DNA of 64,000 nucleotides, from NCBI RefSeq assembly GCF_029203285.1, contig NZ_CP115669.1, forward strand, positions 2,852,001-2,916,000. Reading direction: 5' to 3'. The DNA is from Pseudomonas sp. PSE14. Lineage in GTDB: Bacteria; Pseudomonadota; Gammaproteobacteria; Pseudomonadales; Pseudomonadaceae. Each line of letters begins with the position of its first letter. Position 1 is the first letter of the stretch. Below, one piece after another: positions 45,597 through 51,036 of this stretch. A program made the translations under genes and the position numbers. Under the pieces are notes generated by a model. That model saw only the letters and a program-made list of their open reading frames with translations. It searched no databases and was not told where the DNA came from.

Positions 45597-46568
45597 CTAT
45601 TCAGGCGCCGTAGCCGCCTCTGCACGCAGAGCGGCTTGCTGAAGCTGCTCTTCCAGCGCGGCAATCCTGATGGCCTGTTCTCTTGCCTGTTGTTGTGACA
45701 GGCGAAGCTCATCGGTCAGTTCCTGGTTTCGCTCCTCGATCTCGATGCGCTGCCCGTCGAGCCGAGCCTTGTCCTGCCGGAGCACTTCGGAGGCCAGCGT
45801 TTCCCGCATGAGTTGCTGGTGCTTGGCGTCCTGCTCACTGCGCAACAACCGCGCCTCGGTAAGCAGCCGCTCGTTGTCGCGATTGAGCTGGGTCAGCTGG
45901 TCCTGGCGCACGATCATCGACTGCTGCAGTTGCCGGAGCTCGACACCGAGCTGCTGGACCTGCGCTTCGTGCTGTCGCTGTTCCTGCTCCCGCTGCTCCT
46001 TGGCTGCCTGGCGGAAGTGATCCAGCGCCAGACGGGCATGATTGTGTTTCTCCTCGAGCGAAAGAATCTGCGCATCCCGCTCCCGCAGGCGGGTCTCCAG
46101 GTCGCTGCCCAACTGGCGAAGCCGGGCGTTGGCCAGGTCAGCCTGGTGCTTCTGTTCCTGAGCGGCCTGGAGCTGGCTGCGAGCGTCCTGCAGCTGGGCC
46201 TCCATGGCTTGCACGGAGTCCTTCAACAGGTCGATCTGCGCCTGGGCGTTGCGCACCTGCTGCTGGTAGTCCAGGCGTTCGCGGGAGAGGGCAGCCCGGT
46301 CTTCCGCGACGGACTGCCGAGCCTCCTGCTGCAACTGGCCGGCCAGTTGCGTCACCAGTTCGGTCAGGTTGTCGCTGAGCGAACGAGGCTGCCCGCTACG
46401 AGGCGCAGTTTCCGCTTCGATTTCCTTCAGATAACGATGGATCGTGGACTTCGACCCCGTGTTGCCCAGCTCGACGCGCAAGGCATCGATGCTCGGATTT
46501 TCTCCGCGCGCCAGTATGGCTGAGCGTGCCCTCTGTACCAGAGCCTTGGTGATTCCGCCGCGCGCCAT
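45597..46568 (-). CDS. KfrA-like DNA-binding protein with long coiled coil
   Basis: 323 aa from ATG 46568 (GGAG just upstream; ATG 46628 is unlikely). N-terminal HTH of the KfrA/plasmid-replication-region type (ITKALVQRARSAILARGENPSIDALRVELGNTGSKSTIHRYLKEIEAE), then about 230 residues of almost pure heptad-like helix, rich in Gln, Arg, Glu and Leu. KfrA of plasmid RK2 is an autoregulator and nucleoid-like protein that supports plasmid stability. It is divergent from a tyrosine recombinase gene, and the pair stands about 1.3 kb from dif. Role at the terminus is inferred. Confidence 0.88.
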   Translation of the reverse strand: MARGGITKALVQRARSAILARGENPSIDALRVELGNTGSKSTIHRYLKEIEAETAPRSGQPRSLSDNLTELVTQLAGQLQQEARQSVAEDRAALSRERLDYQQQVRNAQAQIDLLKDSVQAMEAQLQDARSQLQAAQEQKHQADLANARLRQLGSDLETRLRERDAQILSLEEKHNHARLALDHFRQAAKEQREQEQRQHEAQVQQLGVELRQLQQSMIVRQDQLTQLNRDNERLLTEARLLRSEQDAKHQQLMRETLASEVLRQDKARLDGQRIEIEERNQELTDELRLSQQQAREQAIRIAALEEQLQQAALRAEAATAPE

Positions 46569-46602
46569 GGGGTCTCCGACGATTTCGTAATGTGGTACGT
46601 AA

Positions 46603-46616
46603 TATGTAAATACATA
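46603..46616. promoter_or_regulatory. Candidate KfrA operator palindrome
   Basis: TATGTA and TACATA arms with a 2-base AA spacer, in an AT-rich stretch between the divergent kfrA-like and recombinase genes. Position and symmetry suit an autoregulatory operator. Confidence 0.45.
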
Positions 46617-46748
46617 GCATTTTATCAAGAATATTCAATATTTGTGCTGAGTAAACTGAGCCTGGATAATCGCGAATTATCACGTGTGATGGCCGAAGCG
46701 AGCGTCAATGGCGCCAAGGATCGGTACAGATAAAGGAGGAGGGCGGTG

Positions 46749-47675
46749 ATGCCCCAGGGGTTGGAGCGGTATATAGAAGCGGCCACGCGCAGCAATACGC
46801 GGCGAAGCTACCAGGCCGCCATCGAGCACTTCGAAGTCAGTTGGGGAGGCTTCCTGCCGACGACCAGCGACACCATTGCCCGCTACCTGGCCGACCATGC
46901 CGGGGTGCTCAGCGCCAACACGCTCAAGGCCCGGCTGGCGGCGCTGGCACAATGGCATGTCAGCCAGGGCTTTCCCGATCCCACCAAAGCACCGATCGTG
47001 CGCAAGGTACTGAAGGGAATCCGCGTGCTACATCCAAGGCCGGAGAAGCAGGCTCAACCGTTGCAGCTGCAGGAACTGGAGCTGTGCGTTCAGTACCTGG
47101 AGCAATCCGCCTTGTCAGCTCACCAGGCGGGCGATGCGCCACGGCGCCGGCGCTGCCTGCGTGACCGGGCACTGATTCTCATGGGCTTCTGGCGGGCGTT
47201 CCGCAGCGAAGAGCTTTGCCGGTTGCAGATCGAACACATCGAGGTCACGCCAGGAAAAGGTATGACGATCTATCTGCCGTGGAGCAAGACCGATCGGGAA
47301 AACCTCGGCCAGACCTTTCATACGCCGGCATTGGCCCGTTTGTGCCCGGTACAGGCTTACCAGGACTGGATAGCCGAGCTTGGTGAACAGCAAGGGCCGG
47401 TTTTCCGAAGCATTGATCGCTGGGGACACGCGAGCGAAGGTCCGCTGCATCCAAACAGCGTCATTCCGATCCTGCGCGCAGCATTACGTGAATGCGGCAT
47501 TCCTGCAGAACGTTACAGCAGTCATTCACTAAGGCGTGGTTTCGCGACCTGGGCAACTCGCAGCGGTTGGGATCAGAAGACGCTGATGAGTTACGTGGGC
47601 TGGCGAGATCCGAAATCGGCGCTGCGCTATGTTGATCCAGCAGGTTCGTTGCCAGGCCAGTTCGCAATAACCTGA
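46749..47675 (+). CDS. Tyrosine site-specific recombinase
   Basis: 308 aa from ATG 46749, with a strong AAAGGAGGAGG upstream. N-terminal SAM-like DNA-binding domain (residues about 8-85) and a catalytic domain with Arg in GFWRAFRSEELCRL, Lys in PWSKTDRE, SHSLRRGFATW (His and Arg), GWRDPKSALRYVD with Trp in the His/Trp site and nucleophile Tyr. All expected residues appear present. It is much shorter than phage integrases with arm-binding domains. It is divergent from the kfrA-like gene and ends about 200 bases before dif. Possibly a second recombinase working near dif; XerC and XerD are expected elsewhere. Confidence 0.9.
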   Translation: MPQGLERYIEAATRSNTRRSYQAAIEHFEVSWGGFLPTTSDTIARYLADHAGVLSANTLKARLAALAQWHVSQGFPDPTKAPIVRKVLKGIRVLHPRPEKQAQPLQLQELELCVQYLEQSALSAHQAGDAPRRRRCLRDRALILMGFWRAFRSEELCRLQIEHIEVTPGKGMTIYLPWSKTDRENLGQTFHTPALARLCPVQAYQDWIAELGEQQGPVFRSIDRWGHASEGPLHPNSVIPILRAALRECGIPAERYSSHSLRRGFATWATRSGWDQKTLMSYVGWRDPKSALRYVDPAGSLPGQFAIT

Positions 47676-47877
47676 GCCGAATGCAAATAGCGTCGGGCGT
47701 TGCGGGTGACATAACGGAAGTCGGCGGCGATTGAAGTGAATCGGGTACCAGGTTTAATCCGGGGCAAGCTCGGCAGTCGATAAGGCGGCCTGCAAGTTAA
47801 GGAACGAGATCCAGTGGAATGGGCCAGGTTCCTGGCGTGAAATCCATAGGGGGAAGCCTCGCATCGGCCAATCCTTA

Positions 47878-47905
47878 GATTCGCATAATGTATATTATGT
47901 TAAAT
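47878..47905 (+). other. dif: dif site (chromosome dimer resolution)
   Basis: 28 bases: left XerC arm GATTCGCATAA, centre TGTATA, and right XerD arm TTATGTTAAAT. The pattern is the known gammaproteobacterial dif consensus, with the Pseudomonas-type start GATTCG. XerC and XerD act there on dimers at cell division. This places the window at the replication terminus. Its location beside a recombinase gene and a truncated gene supports past Xer-mediated events. Confidence 0.9.
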
Positions 47906-48041
47906 TGCATATTGCGTAATCGGCGCGTGGACCGATCCAGGTAATGCACTCACCTTCGGTGATGATCGTGGCGTCCTCGATGATCGAGTGCGTCCGTCCT
48001 TCATGTTTGCTACGTGGACGGTGCTGCCAGAGGTGTTTCAT
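47895..48041 (-). pseudogene. hutI: Truncated 5' fragment of imidazolonepropionase (hutI)
   Basis: ATG 48041 with GGGAAG upstream starts a 48-residue frame: MKHLWQH, then SIIEDATIITEGECITWIGPRAD. This is the N terminus of HutI (usual form MxxLWQH...DGRYSxIEDAAIVT...IxWIGPRAEL). After IGPRAD homology stops and the frame runs into the right arm of dif, ending with TAA inside it. About 350 residues are missing and no histidine degradation genes are near. The frame continues upstream of the ATG into non-family sequence. It looks like a relic left by a rearrangement at dif. Confidence 0.75.
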
Positions 48042-48153
48042 TGCAGTCTTCCCGACGCAGTTAAACGCCGCCGGGTTTGCCAGCAGCTCCGTTATGTGGC
48101 GTGAGCGCTGTCGCGCAGCACAAAGCTCATACTCTCTCTTGACGCCCCAGCCA

Positions 48154-48182
48154 CCCGGATGGAGATCAGTTCTCCGTCCGGG
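48154..48182 (-). terminator. Hairpin after the small secreted-protein gene
   Basis: CCCGGA..GGAGA pairs with TCTCC..TCCGGG across a short loop, ending 14 bases past the stop of the 97-aa gene. No T-run is seen, so it may be a weak terminator. Confidence 0.5.
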
Positions 48183-48196
48183 CCCCTCCAATCAGA

Positions 48197-48490
48197 TCAG
48201 GCAACGCTGGAGTCCTGTTGCCCCACCAGATGCTTGCCCAGCGGAGTCTTGCCGAAACCATCTGCGGCCAAAGTCTGCTGTGCCGGCTCTTCCGGGCTCA
48301 GGTGCGTGCCCAGAGGCGTTCTGCTGAAGCCATCTTCTGCAAGTTGCGGTGCTCCACTCTTGCCAGCCATGGGCGCCAGCTGGAAGCAGACGTTGCCGTC
48401 CGCGCAACTTTTCTCGGCAGCGTTCACGTGTATGGCAACACCGGACAGGACGAAGGCGATGGCGGTCAGGCAGGTTTTCAGGTTGTTCAT
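48197..48490 (-). CDS. Small secreted protein with two DGFxxTPLGxHL repeats
   Basis: 97 aa. Signal peptide MNNLKTCLTAIAFVLSGVAIHVNA, cleavage before AEKSC. Mature part has two Cys (KSCADGNVCFQL) and a repeat: QLAEDGFSRTPLGTHLSPEE and, 23 residues later, TLAADGFGKTPLGKHL. Ribosome site GAGGA at 8 bases. No known family recognised. The duplicated acidic/glycine motif suggests a binding or self-associating segment. It lies in the orphan-gene zone beside dif. Confidence 0.75.
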   Translation of the reverse strand: MNNLKTCLTAIAFVLSGVAIHVNAAEKSCADGNVCFQLAPMAGKSGAPQLAEDGFSRTPLGTHLSPEEPAQQTLAADGFGKTPLGKHLVGQQDSSVA

Positions 48491-48835
48491 GGCATTGATC
48501 CTCGAGCATGGAAGGGAAATCAGGACAGGATCGAAGGCAGCCGGGAGCTGTGCTCCGTGGCGTACGCCGATCTCCTGATGGGGCCCATTGAATGCCGTCG
48601 AGGTATCTCTAGAGTGTCGAAAAGAAGTGCCGCCATGTGCTCAGGTGTCAGAGCAACCTAACGACACAATGGAATACAAAGCCTTGTCCCGGATGTACTC
48701 GCGCCATGCGCAACGGTCTCGGCTACGCTGCCTACTCCTGCATGTGGACGTAGATGGCTCGGGCTGTACGTCCCCTTTTCATTGGGGATTCAACCGGTGA
48801 ACGCAACACCTTTCGCCCCGAACTGACCAGTCAAT
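48491..48835. other. Intergenic region
   Basis: 345 bases between two leftward genes. It contains the promoter of the small secreted-protein gene in its left part. A 70-codon rightward frame at 48588-48800 has no family support and is not taken as a gene. Confidence 0.5.
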
Positions 48836-49567
48836 TCATGTGTACCGAAGGTTGGTGATATCGATGGAAACCAACAATTGTTCTTCGATCGCCTGGCCGC
48901 GCTCATCTCGTCGATAGGCGCGCCGTTTGCCAGGAATGCGCAGCCCATCGGCTTCTATATAATCGTGAACATACTGGGCAGCAGGCAGCGTTCCGCTGAT
49001 GTCGACGGAATAGTCGTGCCGCCGCAACAGGAAGTCCTCGCCGAAATAGAAGTCCTGCGTCGAGGAGTGCGTAGCCACGTTCTCCGGGAAATACACCCTT
49101 AACCGACGCCAGTGTTGGCCACCCTCCTCCCATGGAGAAAGCTCTTCCACCTTGACACCTGGAAGGGTGAACAGGAATGGCATGGTGAGATAGGACCAGA
49201 GCGCATAGCCGTTGAAATACGCTCGATGAAGCGGGTCCCACGGCGTCGTTTCGCCGTGCCCGAGGAATGACTCCCGGGGGTTCCACCGTTCCGCCACTAC
49301 GTCACCATTGGTGTTCTCGATGGCGATGCGATTGGGCGTGTAAGCCGTACGTTGATTCGGTGCCCCGAATGGCATGACCGAGGCTCGCTGCTCATGCAGC
49401 CAGACAGCCATCTCCCTCGCGGTGCTGTCCTGGGTCAGCCCCTTCATACCCCACAACGAGCCGCCAGTCACAATGCTGGCGCGTACTGTACTGAGCTCAT
49501 TCCAGCGATCCAGCCCGCCGTGGGCGGATACCACGCGATCCAGCAGATCGCAGTTTTCATCGTTCAT
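48836..49567 (-). CDS. Hypothetical protein, 243 aa
   Basis: Starts MNDENCDLLDRVVSAHGGLDRWNELSTV, a pattern seen at the start of outer-membrane lipoprotein carrier-like or LolA-like beta proteins (AHGGxxxW). Mid-section repeats of aromatic beta strands (FLFTLPGVKVEELSPWEEG, WRRLRVYFPENV, QDFYFGEDFLLRRHDYSV, YVHDYIEADGLRIPGKRRAYRRD) suggest a beta-rich fold. No signal peptide. Function unknown. Confidence 0.75.
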   Translation of the reverse strand: MNDENCDLLDRVVSAHGGLDRWNELSTVRASIVTGGSLWGMKGLTQDSTAREMAVWLHEQRASVMPFGAPNQRTAYTPNRIAIENTNGDVVAERWNPRESFLGHGETTPWDPLHRAYFNGYALWSYLTMPFLFTLPGVKVEELSPWEEGGQHWRRLRVYFPENVATHSSTQDFYFGEDFLLRRHDYSVDISGTLPAAQYVHDYIEADGLRIPGKRRAYRRDERGQAIEEQLLVSIDITNLRYT

Positions 49568-49903
49568 CGAGGCAGCCCTCTAGGATTTGGGTCGAACCAA
49601 TCCGGCGTCACCTACGATGCTGTTCAGCAGAGTGTGACTCTCCAGGTTGGGTGGAACTGGAGAGCAGAATGCAGCGCCTTGGCAATATCTTAAATGACGT
49701 ATAGGGGCGTGATTCAGGACATTTCAGGATCGAACATGCACCGTACGGCGATCTGCTGATGGACGAATTAGCGTATACGTGTGGTCGCCGGAGTTGAATG
49801 CTGCGGGCAATTCGTACGCCGGGATGGCGGCGCTTGAGCTGCTGAGTTCGCGGATCAGGTGGTCGGTGTTCTGATCAACGGACTTCCTTGCTCTGCTCTC
49901 GTC
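49568..49903. other. Intergenic region
   Basis: 336 bases with no supported gene, repeat or hairpin. It probably holds the promoter of the 243-aa hypothetical gene. Its base composition looks less GC-rich than flanking genes, in keeping with the acquired-looking zone. Confidence 0.4.
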
Positions 49904-50788
49904 TCACTCAAAAAGATGTTGTGCATGCATCGCCACGGCTTTCGCTGAAATCAGCTCGTTGCGCTCACTGGTCCAGGCTCTCTGATAAAGTTCGCGGACA
50001 ACATCCAGCCAGTGCGCGCTACCGTCCCCGTCGGTCCCCACAAAGATGGCCCCACCATGGGCACGATATTCATCACGGGTGGTCGATGCGACTCGAGCGA
50101 ACTGCATCGCACGGGTTACCAGTGATCCGTGATCCACGGATGGACAGGTTCCGTTGATCGCAGCGGGAGCCTCGACGAACTGGGCGGAATGCACCGTCAC
50201 ACCGTCCCTGAACAGGAGGCACAGCATTTGATTGCCATGCCCGCCTGCGGATTTGGCGGGCTCCGGTATGAATCCCGAGACGGGAAAGACGCCGGTCGAG
50301 GCCATGATGATGGTTTCGGCCACGGCGTTGACACAAGCGCGCATGTTGCTCGCTCCTGCGTCTTTACAGGCCGTCACCGTCCACCGGGATAGCTGATAGA
50401 TCGAGGGGTTGAGCATGTAGGTCTTAACGCGCACCCCAGTGTCGTAGTAATCGCAGCGTTGTACGGGAAAACCTTCCCAGCGAGGAAAGTCGATGACGGC
50501 AGCATCACAGCGACGAGGCTTGCCGCCTATCCTTGTGCTGAAGATCTTGCGCGCCTCCTCCAGCCCCACCCTATCCCCAGCGCTATTGGTGATAGCGGTT
50601 GAGGGGGGTATCGGTACGGTACTCGCTGACGCTGGATGAAGGTCGTTCGGTGGGGAGACTTCGTCCGCTGGTGCCGGATTCTCAACCGGGCTGGGCTGGT
50701 CAGGCTTCCGATCGTCGCGATTCCACTCACTGGCCACGGCAGGTGCGGTGAACAGGCTGACGCTGAGCAACAGCAGTAGCGCTTTCAT
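49904..50788 (-). CDS. Hypothetical secreted protein, 294 aa
   Basis: Strong ribosome site AAGGAGG. Signal peptide MKALLLLLSVSLFTAPAVAS, then a Pro/Asp/Ser-rich linker (about residues 22-65) and a globular domain with Cys pairs (RRCDAAVIDFPRWEGFPVQRCDYY, CKDAGASNMRACVNA, LCLLFRD, GTCPSVDHG), probably disulfide-bonded in the periplasm. No catalytic motif or family recognised. Confidence 0.75.
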   Translation of the reverse strand: MKALLLLLSVSLFTAPAVASEWNRDDRKPDQPSPVENPAPADEVSPPNDLHPASASTVPIPPSTAITNSAGDRVGLEEARKIFSTRIGGKPRRCDAAVIDFPRWEGFPVQRCDYYDTGVRVKTYMLNPSIYQLSRWTVTACKDAGASNMRACVNAVAETIIMASTGVFPVSGFIPEPAKSAGGHGNQMLCLLFRDGVTVHSAQFVEAPAAINGTCPSVDHGSLVTRAMQFARVASTTRDEYRAHGGAIFVGTDGDGSAHWLDVVRELYQRAWTSERNELISAKAVAMHAQHLFE

Positions 50789-51036
50789 CCCGACCTCCTT
50801 GCGGCAGCAAGCGCTCCATGCCGGAGCGTCGTCTGCAGCAATACCGCAACTCTAGTTTCATCCACATCGCGCTGTGGAATAACCGATCTGTGGTCGTACG
50901 AGTCGGCGGAGAGTCTCGTGCCCTACCCCTGCGTTTGGCGCCCTCCTCCTCAGCCTTCGAGATCACCGTGGCGAAAGCGTTTGCGCACTCTCGATCGCAA
51001 GGACGGCTCGAAATGCCGCCTCGGCCACGTCCTGGA

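Follow-up and report, generated by a model that had tools for sequence, protein, structure and literature searches.

The XerCD/dif system of Pseudomonas aeruginosa and the resolution module of the Tn4651 group are the described systems closest to the locus analysed here, a 64-kb stretch of chromosomal DNA hereafter called the window. In P. aeruginosa, as described in the available part of PMC6199493, FtsK is directed by the octamer GGGNAGGG (KOPS), and the termini of segregation and replication are separable. The sequences that flank dif are highly variable across Proteobacteria, according to the accessible portion of PMC2731167. The resolvase of the Tn4651 group consists of a tyrosine recombinase, TnpS, and a divergently encoded helper, TnpT, and the rst site with its two pairs of inverted repeats lies between tnpS and tnpT (PMC7157771, available sections). 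The window holds a counterpart of each: a dif site, which is ordinary and expected, and beside it a gene pair with an intervening core, which we regard as of more import than dif itself.

RESULTS

A single dif site at the KOPS switch

The original prediction held that a 28-base sequence in the window matches dif in both Xer arms and in the 6-base centre (Table 1). This was confirmed, as all 28 bases are identical to the Pseudomonas aeruginosa PAO1 row in the table of PMC2731167, in the part of that source available. At up to 3 mismatches, the sequence had one match in the 64-kb window, where none of 100 dinucleotide shuffles gave any, and a single match in the whole genome (one contig of 5,977,163 bases). 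The predicted uniqueness of the 28 bases was thus verified, and a second dif of equal standing was found nowhere in the genome at this threshold.

Table 1. Features of the dif locus and of the neighbouring module (window coordinates)
Feature	Position	Strand	Details
dif	47878..47905	+	28 bases, GATTCGCATAATGTATATTATGTTAAAT; genome 2,899,878-2,899,905
dif, XerC-side 11-base arm	47878..47888	+	Arm split as in PMC2731167 (available part)
dif, 6-base centre	47889..47894	+	Split as in PMC2731167 (available part)
dif, XerD-side 11-base arm	47895..47905	+	Arm split as in PMC2731167 (available part)
TnpS-like tyrosine recombinase	46746..47675	+	309 aa, intact; PF00589, E 8.1e-14
TnpT-like helper, KfrA_N domain	45597..46568	-	PF11740, E 2.9e-27
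rst-like inverted-repeat core	46664..46681		GGATAAT-CGCGA-ATTATC; predicted from sequence
Second conserved motif near helper gene	46596..46616		TACGTAATATGTAAATACATA; from alignments

Eighty stretches of 20 kb were analysed for strand signals, 40 of them covering a continuous 800 kb around dif and the other 40 sampled from the rest of the genome. Within the 800 kb, KOPS octamers left of dif occurred 72 times on the + strand and 8 times on the - strand, and those right of dif occurred 10 times on the + strand and 73 times on the - strand. The best single switch fell between -2,507 and +3,043 of dif, with 145 of the 163 octamers in agreement and 18 in disagreement, so the reversal expected at dif was located within -2.5 to +3.0 kb of it. 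GC skew in 20-kb blocks was for the most part positive up to 2.92 Mb and negative beyond it, and its cumulative maximum over the 800 kb, a noisier signal than KOPS, lay at dif +18,346. The skew flip that had been predicted at dif was therefore recovered as a cumulative maximum 18 kb away, and no flip was visible inside the 64-kb window alone. This offset is typical by the distances given in the available part of PMC6199493, where PAO1-UW has its switch no more than 15 kb from dif and the average distance is 13 kb. Uniqueness, KOPS reversal and skew were the tests named together with the original prediction, and their outcome supports the identity of the site, which is almost certainly the chromosomal dif.

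The genome search revealed two XerC/D-type genes (Phage_int_SAM_1 domain, frames of 306 and 300 aa) and one FtsK_gamma gene, and gave no match for MatP. We demonstrate for this dif its sequence, its uniqueness and its location where the signposts switch, along with XerC/D-type and FtsK genes in the genome; binding and recombination would take place there if the established mechanism applies. In that mechanism, homologous recombination would leave sister chromosomes joined as a dimer, and septal FtsK would move the DNA along GGGNAGGG, which points at dif from both arms. FtsK would then activate XerC/XerD, by which two dif copies would be recombined to yield monomers.

Segregation ends at dif, which is also the place of the KOPS and skew switch, and the expected meeting point of the replication forks is opposite the origin. 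As the contig begins within dnaA, the opposite point is at about 2,988,582, which puts it 88.7 kb to the right of dif and 72.6 kb outside the window. The offset amounts to 1.5% of the chromosome, which counts as symmetric by the 5% rule in the available part of PMC6199493. In the three stretches examined for an origin, no match to the DnaA-box pattern was found; the first 20 kb of the contig contain 5 KOPS, all on the - strand. The window had been said to span the replication terminus, and this is right for dif and the KOPS switch, both of which lie inside, and not for the point opposite dnaA, which lies outside. Given the distance of that point from dif, "replication terminus" is a loose term and "segregation terminus" is the better one. 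As expected, segregation ends and both chromosome arms converge at dif here.

dif and its surroundings in relatives

Of 25 genomes from the genus, 24 contain the dif consensus at up to 2 mismatches; its 22-base core, at the same threshold, was present in 209 of 248 genomes of the family. A set of 83 different sites with 30-base flanks (first dif base counted as 1) revealed conserved C at -17, A at -6 and T at -5, as well as A at 30, purine at 32, T at 33, purine at 34 and T at 35; the other 52 positions outside dif were weakly or not conserved. In Pseudomonadaceae, the conservation of dif seems to extend beyond the 28-mer itself (window 47848-47935). In 11 of 48 dif matches, from P. frederiksbergensis, P. 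fluorescens and relatives, the XerC arm carries CGTGTAAT instead of CGCATAAT; loci with this variant include L342, L346-L349, L352, L361 and L364.

Any similarity of at least 150 bases to the window was seen in 5 of 20 dif stretches of relatives. In one of these relatives (G019), the similarity stops 38 bases after dif begins, and to the right of that point no other match of at least 150 bases was found within 10 kb on either side of its dif. The breakpoint at dif is therefore real. Another relative (G022) has the segment 4.3-11.2 kb to the right of dif in inverted orientation, on the opposite side. The ORFs right of dif at 48197, 48836 and 49904 (-) matched no Pfam family at E 0.001, and within 47001-51000 the G+C content drops to 0.58-0.59 right of dif. 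Of the proposal that dif explains orphan genes and breakpoints nearby, the breakpoint itself was substantiated by G019, and dif as its cause was not.

A TnpT-rst-TnpS-like module beside dif

The module (45597-47675 in all) consists of two divergent genes that flank an inverted-repeat core, and its recombinase gene stops 202 bp before dif. The recombinase shares 63-64% identity with the pWW0 and pCAR1 integrases and, by eye against the family motif, has the expected R, H-x-x-R, W and Y residues. The helper shares 60-62% identity with its plasmid counterparts across about 245-263 aa, its C-terminal part remaining unaligned. Its likely start codon is the ATG at 46568; in the ORF list the frame opens at a TTG at 46628. 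The motif TACGTAATATGTAAATACATA is a possible helper-binding site. A second rst-like core was absent, at up to 3 mismatches, from the 1.6 Mb scanned of 5.98 Mb. The plasmid records call the two genes only "site-specific integrase" and "DNA-binding protein"; we take them to be tnpS and tnpT from their layout. Judged by arrangement, the module is laid out like TnpT-rst-TnpS, with a putative role in resolution. Tn3-family tnpA products have about 1000 aa; no such gene was found in the window, where the longest complete ORF has 834 aa, and we do not class the module here as a Tn4651-group transposon.

A divergent helper accompanied the recombinase at 72 of 80 loci of named genomes and at 17 of 20 further loci. 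Core-like sites were present at 120 of 135 loci (some genomes being repeated) and comprised 53 different sequences. In these 53 cores, arm symmetry exceeded all 2000 shuffles at pairs 0 and 2 and 98.6% of them at pair -1, and was unremarkable against shuffles at pairs -2, 1, 3, 4, 5, 6 and 7, the cores having been chosen by a degenerate pattern that itself favours symmetry and related sequences having been included uncorrected. The dN/dS values of both genes against L132 and G019 were 0.07-0.085, which indicates purifying selection on both. Around the pair at 81 loci, we found an AhpF-like reductase 54 times, a peroxiredoxin 52 times and an Ada-like gene 44 times. Neighbours common to 44-54 of 81 loci point to stable chromosomal inheritance there; the pair of the window sits outside this context.

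Closeness of the module to dif across genomes

Distances were compared in 27 chromosome-scale genomes, our own included, each with dif and the recombinase (identity of 55% or more, about 250 aa) together on a single contig of at least 4.6 Mb; they come from the matches listed, which are not exhaustive. Measured between midpoints, with ten genome lengths rounded, the nearest recombinase copy lay within 260 kb of dif in 25 of these 27 genomes and within 100 kb in 17. Uniform placement, the only standard against which the 25 of 27 was judged, predicts 3.3 and 1.3 genomes, respectively, and 20,000 random draws gave a maximum of 12. Seventeen of the 27 genomes fall into nine gene contexts when grouped by shared neighbours in the stretches analysed, and nine is the better count, the genomes being related; differing contexts could also be explained by turnover of neighbours.

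With all copies counted, 29 of 37 lay within 260 kb of dif and 8 beyond. The distant nearest copies are those of G145 (1.1 Mb) and G292 (2.7 Mb), and distant second copies occur in G177, G187, G144 and G192; the dif of G084 has 3 mismatches in its core. The clade to which the pWW0 and pCAR1 genes belong likewise has copies near dif, in G012, G192 and G187. The set leaves out genomes with recombinase and dif on different or short contigs, among further cases: G183 (46% identity, 7 kb from dif), G100 (a 165-aa fragment 2.3 Mb from dif), G191 (copy on a second contig) and further fragments in G084, G177 and G187. Also left out are G269, G130 and G137, family members with a single contig each, in which the recombinase is present at 62% identity or more and the dif core is absent at up to 3 mismatches, likely because dif has diverged.

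In the high-identity group, the recombinase is aimed at dif, on either arm, in 26 of 27 copies within 500 kb; outside that group it is so in 6 of 20. The figure is no more than suggestive, since the genomes share ancestry and an inversion around the origin-terminus axis preserves orientation. Recombinases that are less similar (29-36% identity) and have a KfrA_N gene nearby also lie near dif, at 71 kb (G017), 97 kb (G021) and about 36 kb (G012). In the open-access literature, subscription journals being mostly outside the search, we found no report of a TnpT-rst-TnpS-type module near dif; PMC8453159 mentions TnpS, TnpT and dif once each.

DISCUSSION

It is hardly credible that a dif-using mobile element (filamentous phage or IMEX) left the 28 bases behind as its attachment site and that the recombinase next to them is its integrase. 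The exact 25-base dif core does occur in 90 IMG/VR stretches, and the tyrosine recombinase 202 bp from dif partly matches 2 of 80 viral loci (L316, 52% over 97 aa; L280, 27% over 163 columns), but the site is the sole dif in the genome and sits exactly at the KOPS switch. The DNA matches to the 80 viral loci are confined to dif, 901 bases around dif have no match in 50,697 phage records, and both results led us to discard a phage remnant. The recombinase, moreover, has its own candidate core site apart from dif. Flanks of up to 10 kb at 80 related recombinase loci contained no dif-like core (22-mer, at most 4 mismatches), in a search run without a positive control; an exact-core search found dif in 20 of 20 stretches of relatives, themselves chosen around dif. 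A role as dif-using integrase was rejected on this count of none in 80 and on G022, where the recombinase is 90% identical and the pair and dif are on different contigs. Another reading, in which the helper organises the terminus through many sites as MatP does elsewhere, we consider highly improbable. A coiled-coil-type KfrA_N DNA-binding protein beside dif, in a genome where MatP was not found, would suit such an organiser; TACRTANNAYGTA, however, has 2 matches in the 800 kb around dif and none in 40 sampled blocks, and a longer composite motif occurs once, at the pair itself. The helper motif is thus not spread over the terminus, and a MatP-like organiser was dismissed.

Most of our expectation goes to the pair as a remnant or passenger of Tn4651-type elements, its closeness to dif reflecting insertion preference or tolerance and not dimer resolution, and we regard this as fairly probable. 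The closest described modules are plasmid-borne and group with the dif-near copies of G012, G192 and G187, and 8 of 37 copies lie more than 260 kb from dif. Tn917, a Tn3-family element, favours the terminus in Firmicutes, which also counts for a passenger. Less easily reconciled with one are the purifying selection on both genes, the stable inheritance among neighbours common to 44-54 of 81 loci, the limit of 834 aa on complete ORFs in the window, and the finding that none of 10 long ORFs tested (22 listed) near the copies of relatives is a Tn3 transposase at E 1e-10. A bolder reading, which we hold to be unlikely, is that a domesticated TnpT-rst-TnpS module has been retained in the terminus region of many Pseudomonadaceae as a second, KOPS-independent system of dimer resolution. 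Since a dimer carries two direct copies of rst, the module would resolve dimers as a second route; it would act only where sister termini remain together at the septum, and this confinement would explain its retention near dif in different contexts. Preference for, or tolerance at, the terminus on the part of the elements is likelier than such a system, because the clustering at dif is set against uniform placement only. If the module has been repeatedly retained beside dif, Pseudomonas may have a backup of dimer resolution, and with such a backup the effects of dif or xer mutations could be masked.

Compared with XerCD/dif of PAO1, the site analysed here is alike in having the KOPS and GC-skew switch at or near it (PMC6199493, available part), and the neighbouring genes differ; dif lies 88.7 kb from the point opposite dnaA, whereas in PAO1-UW the skew switch and the replication terminus are reported to be 682 kb apart. 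Compared with the Tn4651 modules of pWW0 and pCAR1, the copy here is chromosomal, lies 202 bp from dif and has no recognised Tn3 transposase nearby, but it shares with them the divergent helper and tyrosine recombinase, at 60-64% identity, and the inverted-repeat core and helper-side motif in the gap between the genes.
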